Source: Methylococcus geothermalis | Lineage (GTDB): Bacteria > Pseudomonadota > Gammaproteobacteria > Methylococcales > Methylococcaceae | Length of the DNA stretch: 64,000 nt | Assembly: GCF_012769535.1 (NCBI RefSeq) | Contig: NZ_CP046565.1 | Coordinates: 2,370,501-2,434,500, forward strand | Direction of reading: 5' to 3' | Shown here: positions 1 through 8,276 of the stretch, piece by piece | Layout of the letters: each line of letters starts with the position of its first letter | Numbering within the stretch: position 1 is the stretch's first letter | Made by a program: the position numbers and the translations under genes | The notes under the pieces: model-generated | What the model was told of the DNA's origin: nothing | The model's database searches: none | Seen by the model: only the letters and a program-made list of their open reading frames with translations

Positions 1-720
1 GCAAAGAAGCGGGTCTGGATGCCGTTGAATCTCGCCGCCACCACACCTGTGGCCGAGTGGCCCAGGCACTGCCAAACACCGGCCGAGATCCCCGGCGCGA
101 TCCCGAGGGAACACTCCCAGCCTCACAACAGCATTCACCGCCAGACCGGCACCACCGGGGAAGGCCGCCAGTTCGTGCCCTACGCCATGAACCAGCTCTG
201 GTACGGCGATGACGCGGAACTTGACATCTATGTGGTGCTGGATGACGCGCGATTGAACGCCCAGGAACTGGAAACCCTGTTCAACGATATGGGCGCCTTC
301 GGTTTCGGCCGCGATGCCAGCGCCGGTCTGGGCAAGTTCCGGGTGAAAAGCCTCGAGCCTTTTTCCTGGCCTGAGCCGCTCAGCGCCGATGCCTGGCTGA
401 CCCTGGCCCCGTGCGCACCGCAAGGACTGGGGTTCGACGCCAGCCGGAGCTTTTACCGGGTGTTCACCCGCTTCGGCCGACATGGCGACATGGGCGTGCA
501 CCAGGGGCATCCCTTCAAAACGCCGGTCCTGCTGGCTCAAACCGGGGCGGTCTTGACGCCAACGGCGGACGGCAAGGGCCCGGCGGAACGGACGAGGCTT
601 TTCCTCGGCCAGGGCCTGGGCGGCGACGGCCAACTGTCCCGTTCCCTGCCCGCCACGGTGCACCAGGGTTATGCACCCGTCATCGGAATCCAACTGCCGC
701 GAAGGGAGGCGGCCGTATGA
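1..720 (+). CDS. csm4: Csm4, type III-A CRISPR RAMP subunit (5' end outside window)
   Basis: Open from the first base in the frame that ends with TGA at 718-720, so the gene starts upstream; 239 residues are visible. Csm4 caps the 5' (repeat-handle) end of the crRNA in the Csm complex and contacts Cas10. The visible part has the Gly-rich RAMP loop GFGRDASAGLGKF at about residues 101-113 of the fragment, the pattern usual for Csm4 proteins, and a C-terminal RAMP fold region. Its stop overlaps the ATG of the next gene (ATGA), which is Csm5, as expected for a csm operon. An internal ATG at 19 is not a credible start because the family needs a further N-terminal ferredoxin-like domain. Family assignment is by motif and neighbour; the rest of the complex (cas10, csm2, csm3) must be upstream. 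Confidence 0.85.
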   Translation, partial: AKKRVWMPLNLAATTPVAEWPRHCQTPAEIPGAIPREHSQPHNSIHRQTGTTGEGRQFVPYAMNQLWYGDDAELDIYVVLDDARLNAQELETLFNDMGAFGFGRDASAGLGKFRVKSLEPFSWPEPLSADAWLTLAPCAPQGLGFDASRSFYRVFTRFGRHGDMGVHQGHPFKTPVLLAQTGAVLTPTADGKGPAERTRLFLGQGLGGDGQLSRSLPATVHQGYAPVIGIQLPRREAAV

Positions 721-2423
721 AGGCTTTCACCAGTTACCGGCTGCACATCACGCCACTGTCGCCCCTCCACATCGGCACTGGCGAAAGCTACGAACCGACC
801 CACTACGTGATCGAGGACGGCGTCCTCCATGAATTCGATAGCGTGGCCGTGATGGATGTGTTACCGATGCAGGATCGGAAAGAACTGCTCGCCATCGTCA
901 GCCGCAAACCGAACCCGGACATGATCAAGGCGATGCAAGGCTATTTTTATAAGCGCCGCGGCGCCCTCATGCCTTGGGCCATCAACCGGATCCCGGTGTT
1001 GCCTGGCGTAGCCCGTTTGTATGCCAGCCGGGTGGGACAGACCGCCAACCCCGAGAGCCAAGGCGGACAGGATAACAACTGGTTGGAAATCGACCGTACC
1101 GCCTTCAACCCCATCAGCCGGAAACCCGTATTGTTCGGCTCTTCGCTGAAAGGCGCGATCCGGACGGCCTTGCTGGACAAGGCCAATGGCGGCGCGCGGG
1201 CGCACGAACCCAAAGGATTGCACGAGTTTCAAGGCCGCGTGTTCGGCTATCCCCCTCTTGAACTCGATCCCCTGCGCCTGGTGCAGTTGTCGGACGCAAG
1301 CTGGCAGAGCGAGTCCGGACTCACGGCCACCGAGGTTCATTGCGCCGTCAACCGCAAGAAAGCACCGGTCAGGGATGAAAAAGGCCAGCTGCGCAAGGCC
1401 CTGGGCGAGAACAAGAATCTGTATCAGATCCTGGAATGCGTATCGGCTTGGCGCTACCGGGCGTTTTCGGCCCAGCTCAATCTGCAACGAGTCGATGACC
1501 TGCCGCAGCAGGACAAACTGCCCGCCCGGAAATTCCGGTATTCCCTGGAGGCGCTAGCCCACGACTGCAATAACTTTTACCTCCCCGTGCTTAGCGGAGA
1601 AATCCGGCTGTTGAAAGAACGAGCTTTCATCGACAACGATTGGTTTGAAAGCATCCAGCAACTATTGAAACTGTGTCAGGACAAGCTGAAAAGCGGCCAG
1701 GCCTTCCTGCTGCGCGCCGGACGTCACAGTGGAGCCGAGTCGGTCACGGTCAGCGGCGCCCGTAACGGCAACATCAAGATCATGAGGGGCAAGGGGCAAC
1801 AGCCCGAATACGCCGACGCGCCCAAAACCCTCTGGCTCGCCGCCCAAACCAAGGAACAGCAAACCGGCCTGCTGCCGTTCGGCTGGCTGCTGGTGGAAGT
1901 CGAACCCCTGGACGCTCCCGAAACCGACTGGCCGGAACTGCAAGCCTTGTGCGAGGCGCGCCTGGGGGACGCGCGCAAGCTGGCGGAACGGCTCGAAGCG
2001 CAGGCGTCGAAGGCTGCGCAACAGCGGGCGGACACCGAGGCAAGACGCCGCGATGAACAAGAACGGGCGCGGCTGGAAGCCGAAAGGCAGGCGCAAGCCG
2101 CGCGTGAACAGGCGGAACGCGAGAAGCGGCTGGCGGCGATGGCGCCGGAACGGCGCGCCGTCGAGGAATTCCGCGCGTATTACGAGGAACAAAAACACAA
2201 AGGACGCTACCAGCCGGGCAGCCAGTTCGACGAAAAGCGCCGCGCCTTCTTTCAGACCGCGCAGGCCTGGACCGATCAGGAAGCACGCCAGGCCGCGGCG
2301 GCCCTGCTGCGCGAAACCATCAAGGACTGGACCGATTGGCCAGCGAAGAAGGAGCGCAAAGCCGAGTTCCGCAGTGGCCTGGAAGCGCTGGAGGGGACCT
2401 TCCGCGCATCCGGCAACCCCTAG
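717..2423 (+). CDS. csm5: Csm5 with long charged C-terminal extension
   Basis: 568 residues. Csm5 is the RAMP at the 3' end of the type III-A crRNP and helps recruit nucleases for crRNA 3' maturation. The N terminus has the family pattern PLSPLHIGTGESYEP (about residues 13-27) followed by YVIEDGVLHEFD; a second hallmark, FGSSLKGAIRTALL, lies near residue 140. The start ATG overlaps the csm4 stop; an in-frame ATG further upstream at 411 would lie inside csm4 and is rejected. Typical Csm5 proteins are about 350-420 residues. Here residues of about 420-485 form an Ala/Glu/Arg/Gln-rich predicted coiled coil, then an approximately 80-residue tail (RAVEEFRAYYEEQK onward) rich in aromatic and charged residues. 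The extension is in frame and GC-consistent, so it is not an assembly artefact at first sight; its role is unknown. Confidence 0.88.
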   Translation: MKAFTSYRLHITPLSPLHIGTGESYEPTHYVIEDGVLHEFDSVAVMDVLPMQDRKELLAIVSRKPNPDMIKAMQGYFYKRRGALMPWAINRIPVLPGVARLYASRVGQTANPESQGGQDNNWLEIDRTAFNPISRKPVLFGSSLKGAIRTALLDKANGGARAHEPKGLHEFQGRVFGYPPLELDPLRLVQLSDASWQSESGLTATEVHCAVNRKKAPVRDEKGQLRKALGENKNLYQILECVSAWRYRAFSAQLNLQRVDDLPQQDKLPARKFRYSLEALAHDCNNFYLPVLSGEIRLLKERAFIDNDWFESIQQLLKLCQDKLKSGQAFLLRAGRHSGAESVTVSGARNGNIKIMRGKGQQPEYADAPKTLWLAAQTKEQQTGLLPFGWLLVEVEPLDAPETDWPELQALCEARLGDARKLAERLEAQASKAAQQRADTEARRRDEQERARLEAERQAQAAREQAEREKRLAAMAPERRAVEEFRAYYEEQKHKGRYQPGSQFDEKRRAFFQTAQAWTDQEARQAAAALLRETIKDWTDWPAKKERKAEFRSGLEALEGTFRASGNP

Positions 2424-2483
2424 GGATGGGAACCCGGCACGACCGCTCTCTCGCCGGCTTTAGCCATGCATCGTTTTTTCCGA

Positions 2484-2783
2484 ATGACCACCTTCTTCAT
2501 CACCCGTCATCCCGGCGCCCGAGTTTGGGCCGAGCAGGAAGGCATCCGCGTCGACCGGCTGCTCGATCATCTCGACCCGGTGGAAATCCAGGCCAACGAC
2601 GCCGTGCTCGGCACGCTGCCGGTCCATCTCGCCGCCGAGGTCTGCGCCCGTGGCGCCCGCTATCTTCACCTTACCCTGGCCTTGCCGCCGGAATGCCGCG
2701 GCAAGGAGCTCTCCGCCGAGGATCTCCGCCGCTTCGGAGCCAGCCTGCGGGAATTCGAGGTAAGGGCCGTCGATAGTGCTTGA
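2484..2783 (+). CDS. csx16: Csx16 (VVA1548-type) CRISPR accessory protein
   Basis: 99 residues from the ATG at 2484. The start is chosen because Csx16 proteins begin with a beta strand of the form MTTFFITRHPGA; an in-frame ATG at 2466 would add MHRFFR. Recognisable family features are TRHPGAxxWA near the N terminus, VDRLLDHLDP, the segment IQANDAVLGTLPVHLAAEVC and YLHLTLALPPECRGKELS. Csx16 occurs almost only beside type III systems with cyclic-oligoadenylate signalling and has recently been discussed as a ring-nuclease type protein that switches signalling off (from memory). It sits between csm5 and a CARF-HEPN effector, which fits such a role. Family assignment is firm, biochemical function is inference. 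Confidence 0.8.
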   Translation: MTTFFITRHPGARVWAEQEGIRVDRLLDHLDPVEIQANDAVLGTLPVHLAAEVCARGARYLHLTLALPPECRGKELSAEDLRRFGASLREFEVRAVDSA

Positions 2784-2810: not shown

Positions 2811-4028
<1,218 letters not shown>

Positions 4029-4127: not shown

Positions 4128-4412
4128 ATGGCCAAACGCACCCTGTACCTCGGCGCCTACGACGTCTCGGACGACAACCGGCTGCGGGCCGCGCTGAAAG
4201 TGCTGCGCAACTACAGCACCGGCGGCCAGAAATCGGTGTTCGAGTGCTTTCTGAGCAGCAGCGAAAAGCGCGAGCTGATCGAGGAAATCGGAGCCGTCAT
4301 CGACCCCAGCGACGACCGGTTCTTTCTGATCCGGCTCGACCCGGCGCACAAAGTCGCGGTCCTGGGCATCGCCGTACCCCCGGCCGATCCAGAGTATTAC
4401 TACGTCGGATGA
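4128..4412 (+). CDS. cas2: Cas2 (first copy)
   Basis: 94 residues, ferredoxin-like fold. Cas2 forms the central dimer of the spacer-integration complex. The first strand ends in YLGAYDVSDD, with the usual metal-site aspartate D12; then STGGQKSVFECFLS and a second strand FFLIRLDP follow. It differs strongly from the second Cas2 in this locus, so the two are not a recent duplication. It is seven bases upstream of cas1 and probably co-translated with it. Confidence 0.88.
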   Translation: MAKRTLYLGAYDVSDDNRLRAALKVLRNYSTGGQKSVFECFLSSSEKRELIEEIGAVIDPSDDRFFLIRLDPAHKVAVLGIAVPPADPEYYYVG

Positions 4413-4419
4413 CATTCCC

Positions 4420-5394
4420 ATGGGCACACTGTATCTCGACCGCAAGGACCTCGAACTCCGCCATGAAGGCAAACACCTCTGTCTCTACGAAAACGGCGCA
4501 AAAAGCGGCACCGTGCCGATCAATCTGATCGACCGCGTAGTGATCCGAGGGGCCGTGACCCTGAGCGCCGGCGCCATCGGCGCGCTCACCGAAGAAGGGG
4601 TCGGCCTGGTGCTGCTCAGTGGCCGGCATGGCAAACACATGGCCACCGTGCTCGGGCGGCCGCAAGGCGATGCCTGGCGCCGCATAGGCCAGTATCGCTG
4701 GTACCACCATGCCGAAGACCGCGGCCGCTGGGCCCGCAGCCTCGTTCTGCTCAAGCTGCGCGCGCAGCAGCGCATGCTCACCGACGCCCTGTCGCTGCGG
4801 CCCGATTGCCGCAAGCCCATCAAGGACGCCCAGCGCACCTTGACTGAACTCCTCGGCAAGGTGCAAGCCCTTCCGCTCGATACCGGCACCCTGGCCAGCC
4901 TGCGCGGGCTCGAAGGCGCCGCCGCCGCCGCCCATTTCAACGCGCTGCAAAGCCTGTTTCCCCCGGCGCTCGGCTTCACCGGACGCAACCGCCGGCCCCC
5001 GCGGGACCCGGTGAATGCCGTCCTGTCGCTGGCCTATACCCTGTTGCATTTCGAAGCCGTCGCCGCCTGCCATGCCGGCGGGCTGGACCCGTACATCGGC
5101 TTCTACCACGAACCCGCCTACAACCGCGAATCGCTTGCCGCCGACCTGATCGAACCGTTACGCGCCCACATCGACGGCTGGGTCTGGCGGCTGTTCGCCG
5201 ACCGCGTCCTGCGCGACGAGCACTTCACCCGCGCCGGCGACACCTGCCTGCTCGGCAAGGCCGGACGCGAACGCTTCTACAGCGCCTTCGAAATCCGTTG
5301 CCGACCGCTGCGCCGCCTGCTCCGGCGCTATGTCCACCGCATCGCCATGCGCCTCGTCGACGACCATGACACCCCGAGGAACGCCGCCGCATGA
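4420..5394 (+). CDS. cas1: Cas1 integrase (canonical copy)
   Basis: 324 residues. Cas1 inserts prespacers at the leader end of the array. It has the N-terminal beta domain (residues about 1-85, with LIDRVVIRGAVTLSAGAIGA) and the helical catalytic domain. The metal-binding set is visible: E165 in LRGLEGAAAAAHF, H230 in GFYHEPAYN, and the acidic segment D242-LI-E245. Length is normal for the family. Its last four bases (ATGA) contain the start of the second, degenerate Cas1, so the two proteins are translationally coupled. Confidence 0.93.
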   Translation: MGTLYLDRKDLELRHEGKHLCLYENGAKSGTVPINLIDRVVIRGAVTLSAGAIGALTEEGVGLVLLSGRHGKHMATVLGRPQGDAWRRIGQYRWYHHAEDRGRWARSLVLLKLRAQQRMLTDALSLRPDCRKPIKDAQRTLTELLGKVQALPLDTGTLASLRGLEGAAAAAHFNALQSLFPPALGFTGRNRRPPRDPVNAVLSLAYTLLHFEAVAACHAGGLDPYIGFYHEPAYNRESLAADLIEPLRAHIDGWVWRLFADRVLRDEHFTRAGDTCLLGKAGRERFYSAFEIRCRPLRRLLRRYVHRIAMRLVDDHDTPRNAAA

Positions 5395-6164
5395 AACCGC
5401 TCTACCTGTACGGCGCCGGCCTTCAGGTCACGATCGACGGCGCGGCGCTACGAATCCTCCAGCCCGAGCACGCCCCCCGCTGGTATCCGCTGGTCCGGCT
5501 GTCGCGGGTGATCTCCGCCCGCGGGGTCGATTGGAGCACCGCCGCCCTGCTTCTCTGCGCCGAGGCCGGCATCACCGTCACCTTTCTCGGCGCCGATGGC
5601 GCCGTCGCCATGCGCTGCATCGGGCCGAGCCCCTCGCCCAACGACGGCTTCGCCCAGCGTTTCGCCGAATTCCTGCAACACCCCGACCGCGACTCGCTAT
5701 ACACCGACTGGCTCAACGGCGTGGAGCGCAGCGCCATCCACAGCCTGATCCGCCGCGCCGGACTCGGCGCCGCCCCCGACCTCACCGCCCCGGAACTGCG
5801 CCGGTTATTCTTCGAATCGGCCCGGGCAATGGGAGGATATGAAGCCTACCGGACCATCGGCGCGCAACTGCGCACCCTGCTCGCCTCCCACGTCACCCAG
5901 GCGCTGCAAGACCTCGGCGTCGACCTCAGCCTGGCGGCCGCCCTCGGCTTCGACCCGGTGGCCGGCTGGGTGCGGCTGCTGCGCTGGGAGTTCGAACTGC
6001 CCTGCGCGGCCTGGCTGGAATACCGGCTCCAGCACAACCTGATCGGCCAGCCCCCGGCGCCAGGCGAAATCCTCGCCTGGTACGAACAGCGGACCGAACG
6101 GCTGGATTGGCTCACGCGCAGCATCACCCGCCGCATGCACCGCTGGCTGGTCGAAATCGGCTGA
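5391..6164 (+). CDS. Short divergent Cas1 paralogue, probably catalytically inactive (Cas1')
   Basis: 257 residues, about 70 fewer than the neighbouring Cas1. Residues 1-79 clearly form the Cas1 N-terminal beta domain: PLYLYGAGLQV, then LSRVISARGVDWSTAALLL and AGITVTFLGADG line up with strands of the canonical copy. The remainder is helical (E151 in MGGYEAYR may correspond to the first catalytic Glu), but the G-x-x-H-E-P histidine motif is missing. The matching stretches, GVDLSLAAALGFDP and WEFELPCAAWLEYRL, have no His and lack the DLIEP acidic patch. The gene overlaps cas1 upstream by four bases and is three bases from the second cas2. It could be a structural partner in a hetero-oligomeric integrase, a DNA-binding or PAM-reading subunit, or decay in progress; the clean frame argues against decay. 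Family membership by eye is good, inactivity is inferred. Confidence 0.75.
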   Translation: MKPLYLYGAGLQVTIDGAALRILQPEHAPRWYPLVRLSRVISARGVDWSTAALLLCAEAGITVTFLGADGAVAMRCIGPSPSPNDGFAQRFAEFLQHPDRDSLYTDWLNGVERSAIHSLIRRAGLGAAPDLTAPELRRLFFESARAMGGYEAYRTIGAQLRTLLASHVTQALQDLGVDLSLAAALGFDPVAGWVRLLRWEFELPCAAWLEYRLQHNLIGQPPAPGEILAWYEQRTERLDWLTRSITRRMHRWLVEIG

Positions 6165-6167
6165 ACC

Positions 6168-6485
6168 ATGGCCCACAACGCACCCCGGCTTCACCTCATC
6201 AGTTACGACATCGCCGATCCCCGGCGTCTGACCCGGCTCCATCGTTACCTCAGCGGCGTCGGCATGCCGCTGCAATATTCGGTCTTCGTGGTGGAACTCT
6301 CGCCGCGTAAGCTGGCTCGCGTGCTCAAAAGCATCGAAGACATCATCGACCCGCGCCGTGACGACGTCCGCGTCTATCCCTTCCCGCGCAACGGCGAACG
6401 CATCCGGATGGGCCGCCAGAGTTTTCCGGAAGGCGTATTCCTCATCGGCCAAGGCTGCGACCTCCTCTCCCTGGCCAAATGCTGA
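6168..6485 (+). CDS. cas2: Cas2 (second copy)
   Basis: 105 residues. Typical Cas2 signatures: LISYDIADPRRLTRLHRYL with D14 as the metal-site residue, then GMPLQYSVFVVEL and a conserved IDPRRDDVRVYPFP segment, followed by GRQSFPEGVFLIG. It belongs to a different Cas2 lineage from the copy at 4128 and is more like Cas2 proteins commonly found with type III loci. Only three bases separate it from Cas1'. It is the last cas gene before the leader and array. Confidence 0.9.
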   Translation: MAHNAPRLHLISYDIADPRRLTRLHRYLSGVGMPLQYSVFVVELSPRKLARVLKSIEDIIDPRRDDVRVYPFPRNGERIRMGRQSFPEGVFLIGQGCDLLSLAKC

Positions 6486-6656
6486 GTTTCCCCCTTGCCC
6501 GGCATGCCGGCCGATGGTTAACTACCCAAGACCCCCTCAGCCACCGCGAAACGGACCGAAGACGCGCCCCGCATGAGAGTCAGCTTTTCAAGCGCGCGAT
6601 TTTTTGCCAACCCCCTTTACAACCCATTGACTCAAAAGGAGAAAAAAGACGAAGCA
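6486..6656 (+). promoter_or_regulatory. CRISPR leader
   Basis: The 171 bases between the second cas2 and the first repeat have no ORF. The 5' part is GC-rich like the host; the last 75 or so bases are AT-rich with poly-purine and poly-T runs (GATTTTTTGCC, AAAAGGAGAAAAAAGACGA), as in many leaders. Orientation is supported because the opposite end of the array is degenerate. TTGCCA or TTGACT could serve as -35 boxes, but I could not pair either with a convincing -10. Confidence 0.65.
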
Positions 6657-8151
6657 GTAGTAATCGAGACCTGATGAAGAAGGGATTAAGACGACTCGAT
6701 TTTGAAGTAAACAGTTATGTTTTTTGTAGTAATCGAGACCTGATGAAGAAGGGATTAAGACTCCAAAGCATTGATATTCCTCCAGTTTTACAATGTAGTA
6801 ATCGAGACCTGATGAAGAAGGGATTAAGACATTGGTTGTCAGAGTAGTGATTGTCCGCTGCATAGGTAGTAATCGAGACCTGATGAAGAAGGGATTAAGA
6901 CATTCCCGCAGCTCGCGGGCCGAAAGCTCGATCTGTAGTAATCGAGACCTGATGAAGAAGGGATTAAGACCCCAGGGCGGCTGGCCTAGTCATTGGGCCG
7001 GGCCGTAGTAATCGAGACCTGATGAAGAAGGGATTAAGACAGTTTAAGCACCGGACGCGTAATCGTCGCGATGCGTAGTAATCGAGACCTGATGAAGAAG
7101 GGATTAAGACCAATTTTGACAATCCGCTTCAAACTCCGACTCCAGTAGTAATCGAGACCTGATGAAGAAGGGATTAAGACCTGCTATGTGCGCTCTATCA
7201 ATACGCATAATTCGTAGTAATCGAGACCTGATGAAGAAGGGATTAAGACGGAAGGGTTCGCGCTCCCATGATACTGATACATCGTAGTAATCGAGACCTG
7301 ATGAAGAAGGGATTAAGACATGTCAGATTCGACAGTTTCAACGATATCGCCGGTAGTAATCGAGACCTGATGAAGAAGGGATTAAGACATCTGCTCGTCC
7401 ATGAGTTTCGCTTCCGGGAAGTGTAGTAATCGAGACCTGATGAAGAAGGGATTAAGACGTCTTTTTTGACGTGCTTCTGAAGCACTGGGTAAGTAGTAAT
7501 CGAGACCTGATGAAGAAGGGATTAAGACCGTATGCAGAGCCGTAGCTATAATCGCCCCAATGTAGTAATCGAGACCTGATGAAGAAGGGATTAAGACCAG
7601 GCAACGCTGCTCGATGTCGCCACAATCAGGGTAGTAATCGAGACCTGATGAAGAAGGGATTAAGACCTCAAAGATGCGGGCGACCTTACGGCATTCGGTC
7701 GTAGTAATCGAGACCTGATGAAGAAGGGATTAAGACGACAAAACAGAATCAACAGATTTAAAATGACGGTAGTAATCGAGACCTGATGAAGAAGGGATTA
7801 AGACGCACTTTTTCGCGGTCGTAGGGCGAAATTTCGGCGTAGTAATCGAGACCTGATGAAGAAGGGATTAAGACCCTTCAGACTCGGGCATCTTTGCATC
7901 TCCGGTGAGTAGTAATCGAGACCTGATGAAGAAGGGATTAAGACGGTGCGAATGGCTTGCAATAATTGATTCATGCCGGTAGTAATCGAGACCTGATGAA
8001 GAAGGGATTAAGACTCTCAATTCCATAGTCATCGCAATCTCCTCGAGTAGTAATCGAGACCTGATGAAGAAGGGATTAAGACCGAGCTTCAGTAATAGGC
8101 TTACCGGTTTTTTCAGTAGCAATCGAGACCTGATGAAGAAGGGATTAAGAC
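6657..8151 (+). CRISPR. CRISPR array, 22 repeats of 36 bp and 21 spacers
   Basis: Repeats start at 6657, 6726, 6795, 6866, 6935, 7005, 7075, 7145, 7214, 7284, 7353, 7423, 7493, 7562, 7631, 7701, 7769, 7839, 7909, 7979, 8047 and 8116. Each is 36 bp, beginning GTAGTAATCGAGACC and ending GAAGGGATTAAGAC. The first 21 are identical by eye; the 22nd has C for T at its fifth base. Spacers are about 32-35 bp and all different. The repeat end ATTAAGAC would give the usual 8-nt crRNA 5' handle of type III systems if read on the plus strand. Degenerate repeats lie just beyond the right end, so the leader is on the left. Spacer targets cannot be judged without a search. Confidence 0.97.
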
Positions 8152-8185
8152 TTGCTTAGTTTGCGGAGGCCGTCTACGATTAAAC

Positions 8186-8276
8186 GTCGTAATCGAGACT
8201 TGGTAGAAAAAGGATTAAGCCATTCATGGCAGGGGCGGGTTTCAAACCTGCTCCTGCGATAGGTAGCAATCGAGAC
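8186..8276 (+). repeat. Degenerate distal repeats of the CRISPR array
   Basis: At 8186-8221 there is a repeat copy with about nine changes from the consensus (GTCGTAATCGAGACTTGG at its start, AGGATTAAGCC at its end). At 8263-8276 only the first 14 bases remain (GTAGCAATCGAGAC, sharing the T-to-C change of the last good repeat). Such decay is normal at the leader-distal end. The shared substitution suggests the last intact repeat and the fragment derive from one older variant. Confidence 0.85.
8229..8257. repeat. REP-like palindrome in the array trailer
   Basis: A 29-base inverted repeat of the form GCAGGGGCGGGTTT, C, AAACCTGCTCCTGC. The two 14-base arms match except for two G/A differences that would be G-U pairs in RNA. 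The form (GCGGGTTT ... AAACC.GC) resembles short dispersed REP-type elements seen in many gammaproteobacteria including methanotrophs (from memory). It lies exactly between the two degenerate CRISPR repeats, where a spacer would be. It could also end array transcription, although no T-run follows. Confidence 0.5.

Follow-up and report, generated by a model that had tools for sequence, protein, structure and literature searches.

How a CRISPR adaptation locus comes to use two cas1 and two cas2 genes, when a homomeric Cas1-Cas2 module is made from one of each, is the question raised by a stretch of the Methylococcus geothermalis genome, here called the window, which is the whole 64,000 nucleotides of DNA that were analysed. 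An earlier note on this DNA had described a four-gene adaptation block, cas2-cas1-cas1'-cas2', at 4128-6485 with gaps of 7, -4 and 3 bases, and the open reading frames and Pfam matches confirm it; the genes are called here cas2A, cas1A, cas1' and cas2B, together the quartet. The features concerned, in window coordinates, are as follows.

720..2423, + strand: gene resembling csm5 within the type III-A operon, its start being inferred; PADLOC Csm5 at E 4.6e-15, NCBIfam Csm5 at 22.9 bits, below the cut-off of 38.3
2466..2783, + strand: csx16 (PF09652, 117.8 bits); context
2856..4028, + strand: CARF-HEPN effector gene of the Csx1/TM1812 kind (TIGR02221, 225.9 bits; PADLOC CARF_HEPN); context
4128..4412, + strand: cas2A, 94 aa; Pfam PF09827, 50.1 bits; Y11 and D12 do not vary across 25 aligned rows
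4420..5394, + strand: cas1A, 324 aa; Pfam PF01867, 237.7 bits over residues 4-291; catalytic E165, H230 and D242
5391..6164, + strand: cas1', 257 aa; diverged Cas1 without active site; PF01867, 28.0 bits; PADLOC PDLC01185, 42 bits; Foldseek matches to Cas1 chains
6168..6485, + strand: cas2B, 105 aa; PF09827, 61.9 bits; Y13 and D14 do not vary across 26 aligned rows; a clade of its own
6486..6656, + strand: leader, taken as the stretch from cas2B to the first repeat; 171 bases, the last 75 or so conserved in four genomes of the genus
6657..8221, + strand: CRISPR array; 23 repeats, each 36 bases long and the last carrying 8 mismatches, separated by 22 spacers of 32-35 bases

All four open reading frames are on the + strand, with spacings of 7 bases (cas2A/cas1A), -4 (cas1A/cas1') and 3 (cas1'/cas2B), and the quartet sits between the type III-A (csm) operon and the CRISPR array. 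The genes upstream include Csm1 (712.8 bits), Csm2 (52), Csm3 (214.4) and Csm4 (111.2), each above its NCBIfam cut-off, and the surrounding locus thus has Cas10/Csm1 and Csm2-Csm5 of a type III-A system, Csm5 being recognized through PADLOC only. Two further cas1 loci lie elsewhere in the host genome. Both Cas2 proteins belong to the Cas2 family by their domain matches (cut-off 23.8 bits for PF09827) and by the invariant N-terminal aspartate, and the Cas2A product has, besides the Y-D pair conserved near its N-terminus, a conserved, FYVG-like C-terminal end. Cas1A is a Cas1 by a full-length family match (cut-off 22.3 bits for PF01867) together with the E-H-D triad.

The arrangement is not unique to this strain, and its recurrence goes beyond chance. 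Among 75 loci, at 73 places in 72 genomes plus two plasmids, cas2A-cas1A-cas1'-cas2B is complete and ordered in 64, a count that leans towards Cas1'-bearing loci because the 75 were mostly found through Cas1'; nine of these 64 lie close to a contig or stretch edge. Scored as ordered though loose are G040, with 1023 bases from cas2A to cas1A, and G869, G925 and one G998 locus, with about 1 kb from cas1A to cas1'; G032, with a short Cas1A frame (279 aa), was also scored as ordered. The other 11 loci comprise one that is reordered, three without Cas1' and seven that are cut by contig ends or incomplete. Of 38 loci, 19 have cas1A and cas1' overlapping by exactly 4 bases. Recurrence can also be gauged from a class sample that was not chosen through Cas1', where a Cas1A search matched 21 of 369 genomes and Cas1' is present in 20 of the 21, the exception being G210. 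The Cas1' query found matches in 15 of 61 genomes, the window's among them, and a Cas1' profile matched 29 of 369 genomes in the class, 16 of 398 in the phylum and 58 of 301 in the order, counts that include ordinary Cas1 proteins matching through their N-domain. When the loci were read, Cas1' was found in 20 of the 29 class matches and 7 of the 16 phylum matches, the window's genome being in both; within the order sample 52 of 301 genomes have a profile match of at least 66 bits, the loci of four of them (G976, G863, G980 and G908) being outside those read. Cas1' of the quartet kind occurs in 17 family codes.

Departures from the compact order take several forms. The only reordered block, cas1A-cas2A-cas1'-cas2B, is in G936 (L138:3918-6289). 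The kilobase between cas2A and cas1A in G040 is occupied by an open reading frame (L079:6464-7597) that is Cas6-like by eye and has no match among the NCBIfam models at E <= 1e-5. Three contigs from one genus carry a small histidine kinase gene of the HisKA-HATPase kind between cas1A and cas1' (L130:3933-4715, L131:1356-2147 and L132:1943-2734), and the L130 copy matches BarA-type kinases.

The shortening of Cas1', pointed out in the earlier note, is borne out at 257 aa against 324 aa for Cas1A, and the catalytic residues are lacking too. In a joint alignment of 39 Cas1A, 37 Cas1' and 19 ordinary Cas1 proteins, the catalytic positions hold E in 0 of 37 Cas1' rows, H in 1 of 37 and D in 18 of 37, with no row having two of the three, while Cas1A has E in all 38 rows with a letter there and H and D in every one of its 39 rows, and the 19 ordinary Cas1 proteins all have the full triad. 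The RxRRPPxDPxN loop is likewise absent from most Cas1' rows. Homology to Cas1 is nevertheless found by three routes. The Pfam Cas1 match (28.0 bits, over the cut-off) is confined to residues 4-83 of the N-domain; the Cas1' profile has seven matches among PDB sequences at E <= 1, five of them Cas1 or Cas4-Cas1 and two unrelated; and the best AlphaFold2 model (pLDDT 85.7, pTM 0.64; the other four models 56-59) gives 141 Foldseek matches at E <= 0.001, the best 50 of which are all Cas1 or casposase chains, with E from 5e-8 and probability 1.00. For the same 50 matches the TM-score, normalised by query length, is 0.25-0.41 and the rmsd 14-20, such that the domain arrangement of the model is not reliable, and a control fold of Cas1A from three sequences was itself poor (pLDDT 57.2) and gives no calibration of these low TM-scores. 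The protein is related to Cas1 and lacks an active site. Two complete integrases side by side are ruled out because Cas1' lacks the catalytic residues, and the suggestion that the block encodes two integrases sharing a subunit has little likelihood, none of the 37 Cas1' rows having more than one of the three residues.

Cas1' might instead be a duplicate in decay and without function. It is the fastest-changing of the four proteins (mean distance 3.69), and it is absent or a remnant in 3 of the 75 loci, both of which would be expected of such a duplicate. Against this, dN/dS for Cas1' is 0.14-0.39, well below 1 in 11 of 11 pairs, with 0.07-0.21 for Cas1A, 0.07-0.18 for Cas2A and 0.01-0.23 for Cas2B (a simple counting method, rough where dS exceeds 1, as it does in some pairs); the frames stay open and the order single over 17 family codes; and Cas1' forms one old clade. 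Decay is therefore extremely improbable as an explanation and is largely refuted. Of the results that the earlier note said would refute its reading, two did not arise: the order is not confined to this strain, and Cas1' is under purifying selection, though a looser one than Cas1A in 9 of 11 pairs. The distribution of conservation within the protein is also informative, the N-domain of Cas1' being better conserved than the remainder (0.345 vs 0.203) with the reverse in Cas1A (0.415 vs 0.479), a pattern in keeping with a protein that would be maintained for its contacts rather than for catalysis.

The trees, from which near-identical and short rows were left out, as they were from the distance test, place Cas1A and Cas1' each in one clade (support 100/94 and 100/99) and Cas2A and Cas2B each in one clade (100/100 and 99/94; 31 and 30 rows). 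The two Cas2 proteins are thus of different lineages, as had been proposed, and 10 of 16 ordinary Cas2 rows cluster with Cas2B, not with Cas2A, at a moderate support of 91/77. Across 27 loci the distance matrices of the four proteins correlate at r 0.48-0.61, and for each of the six pairs 0 of 2000 permutations reached as high a value; shared ancestry explains part of this correlation. A recent duplication is ruled out by the Cas1 and Cas2 trees together with the spread across loci, and the separate clades, the spread and the recurrent order uphold the earlier view of an old, co-inherited unit. A phage or plasmid origin of Cas1' was rejected: tblastn against 72,556 plasmid and 50,697 phage records gave no hit at E <= 1e-3, and a search of viral contigs, for close relatives only, confirmed none. 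One pair of genomes hints at recombination within the block: in G003 and G002 (L006 and L007) the Cas2A proteins are 97% identical and the other three proteins 77-89%.

Three loci without an intact Cas1' offer a view of what the block can do without. On a plasmid of Sphaerotilus sulfidivorans (L129:11981-13688) there is an intact cas2A-cas1A-cas2B, in which a 4-base overlap joins cas1A to cas2B and beside which lie BREX genes, and effector genes were not seen in the 20 kb around the triplet; the locus falls inside the quartet tree, next to L032 (99/83), and Cas1' was therefore lost there. A plasmid of Aeromonas media (L171:7640-9240) carries cas2-cas1-cas2, followed by a toprim-domain gene and then a type III-B operon; its Cas1 joins Cas1A at 100/100 and its Cas2 proteins join Cas2A at 100/99 and Cas2B at 97/85, its place within the lineage being unsure. 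The third locus, that of G210, has a gap of about 160 bases holding a remnant of the start of Cas1'. The Cas1A lineage is present on two plasmids, both without Cas1'. All three loci retain both Cas2 genes, which makes the two Cas2 genes the more constant feature, and the two intact plasmid loci and the one remnant locus mean that Cas1' is dispensable at least there.

These loci lend themselves to a reading in which the unlike Cas2 pair alone is the core, with Cas1A homodimers of the usual kind flanking a Cas2A-Cas2B heterodimer, and with Cas1' as a helper that stands outside the hexamer and is optional. The persistence of both Cas2 genes in the three loci speaks for it, as does the position of the Sphaerotilus locus beside L032, which marks a secondary loss sparing both Cas2 genes. 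It is harder to square with the presence of Cas1' in 20 of the 21 genomes that the Cas1A search picked out of the class sample, and with purifying selection on that protein, and we consider it unlikely. The same loci bear on the idea of two parallel units, in which Cas1A and Cas2A would integrate and Cas1' and Cas2B would act otherwise, for example by binding another repeat or nucleic acid. Such a division would suit the mirror order of the genes, cas1' adjoining cas2B in all 64 ordered loci; however, cas2B persists without Cas1' in the three loci and Cas1' has no active site, which together make parallel units highly improbable.

The quartet is not bound to one type of effector. Csm genes accompany it in the window and in G002, Cmr4 in G003, and a III-B operon in Aeromonas. 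L072 and L073 illustrate this within one genus, the same quartet standing with different effectors, Cmr4 (III-B) in G003 and csm genes (III-A) in G002. Large CARF-adenosine-deaminase proteins are encoded upstream of the quartet in five loci (L051:2983-5181, L052:1600-3852, L074:11768-13918, L075:10154-12304 and L095:2589-4649), PADLOC CARF_ADA having been tested on L051 and L095; a scan of 61 flanking proteins with adenosine deaminase models gave matches in 6. The array starts no more than 600 bases after cas2B in 14 of the 38 loci with enough sequence and is elsewhere farther away, upstream, or not seen. Among four congeneric genomes, the first repeats lie 1-2 positions from that of the window and the end of the leader is conserved, and the 22, 10, 7 and 13 spacers of the four arrays include no pair at >= 80% identity. 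The arrays, as their spacers indicate, have been renewed since the species parted, which points, short of proof, to action of the quartet on these arrays. The spacers of the window array had no protospacer match in phage records at E <= 0.01.

One plausible explanation of these observations, and the one that we prefer at an even chance of being right, is that the quartet encodes a single heteromeric spacer integrase. Cas1A would be its catalytic subunit, in the Cas1a place; Cas1', as a Cas1 relative with its active site lost, would take the non-catalytic, Cas2-contacting Cas1b place; and at the centre an unlike pair of Cas2A and Cas2B would replace the usual Cas2 homodimer. That the four proteins unite in a complex, which place each of them fills and how orientation is affected are what we infer. 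Because Cas2A is unlike Cas2B, the twofold symmetry of the integrase would break, and the differing ends of the complex could set which of them meets the leader, with the direction of integration fixed without a PAM. According to the part of a preprint that treats the Cas1-2/3 integrase, that complex is C2 symmetric and yet has to engage the leader in a single orientation (PMC12259127), and direct adaptation by tested type III systems is described, in a passage of another source, as PAM-independent (PMC9048733). A bolder proposal, possible but somewhat doubtful, is a hard-wired asymmetric integrase of which the halves are unlike (Cas1A with the dead Cas1', Cas2A with Cas2B), and of which different ends would therefore carry out leader-side and spacer-side integration, polarity being independent of a PAM. 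Weighing against the heteromeric integrase are the array's nearness to cas2B in only 14 of 38 loci, the fast evolution of Cas1' and its dispensability in the plasmid loci; the two intact plasmid loci with cas2-cas1-cas2 only also argue against a strict need for Cas1'.

Whether Cas1' belongs to the integrase at all bears on this reading. Other CRISPR types have accessory adaptation proteins, Cas4 and Csn2, and in Cas1 the N-domain makes the dimer contacts. Cas1' might by comparison be a separate accessory protein with no more than passing contact with the integrase, acting for instance in the capture, trimming or protection of prespacers or in the regulation of Cas1A. Its strongly diverged catalytic domain and differing length are in keeping with such a role, and Csn2 is presented as an accessory protein in a passage on type II-A adaptation (PMC6620040). 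The best-conserved part of Cas1' is, however, the N-domain, through which Cas1 contacts its dimer partner and Cas2, and its gene overlaps cas1A by 4 bases in half of the loci compared, so that an accessory role of this kind seems quite unlikely. The type II-A passage has the C-terminal strand of Cas2 contacting the N-domain of one Cas1 (PMC6620040).

Parallels with better-studied integrases are instructive for the heteromeric reading. The E. coli type I-E integrase shares the Cas1 and Cas2 families with the quartet and, in the account given in part of PMC10011333, has in each dimer one Cas1 that catalyses and one that contacts Cas2; it has one cas1 and one cas2 gene, the same protein filling both places, whereas the quartet has two of each. 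RT-Cas1 integrases of type III systems have in common with it type III adaptation and, in the text concerned, a catalytic Cas1a and a non-catalytic Cas1b (PMC8102632), but theirs is a single Cas1 fused to a reverse transcriptase, and Cas1A of the quartet (324 aa) is unfused. The relevant passages of the literature cited here describe integrases each made from one Cas1 and one Cas2 gene. By analogy, the quartet looks as if the places of Cas1 and Cas2 had been assigned to separate genes.

The Cas1' family itself is already known as a library model, PDLC01185 of PADLOC-DB, 'Cas1, diverged variant, second in the loci', which matches 29 of 29 Cas1' rows at E <= 0.001 (best E 1.2e-75). Its name marks the second Cas1 of its loci, as Cas1' is; the model states no function and is silent on the paired Cas2 and the lost active site. 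Two cas1/cas2 copies in a type III locus receive a one-sentence mention, without analysis in the text around it, for Methylobacter KS41 (PMC6119699) and for Acidithiobacillus ferrivorans YL15 (PMC5438186). The copies are placed there beside genes of type III-A or III-B, together with csx1 or csx16, as the quartet is, and they are likely to be quartets. Three other candidates were set aside: the relevant text on 'Diverged Cas1' in PMC12669027 and on 'inactivated Cas1' in PMC3150331 concerns Cas10, and the relevant part of PMC6688271 on 'Two Cas2 proteins' does not show the quartet arrangement. A search of the mainly open-access literature turned up no functional work on either the second Cas1 or the paired Cas2.

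In the biology of these bacteria the quartet is probably a lopsided machine for recording infections, and as such it would help to explain the direction in which new spacers are inserted. With a separate gene for each place, each place could be mutated alone, which is impossible with one cas1 and one cas2, and the plasmid loci without Cas1' provide a natural comparison.
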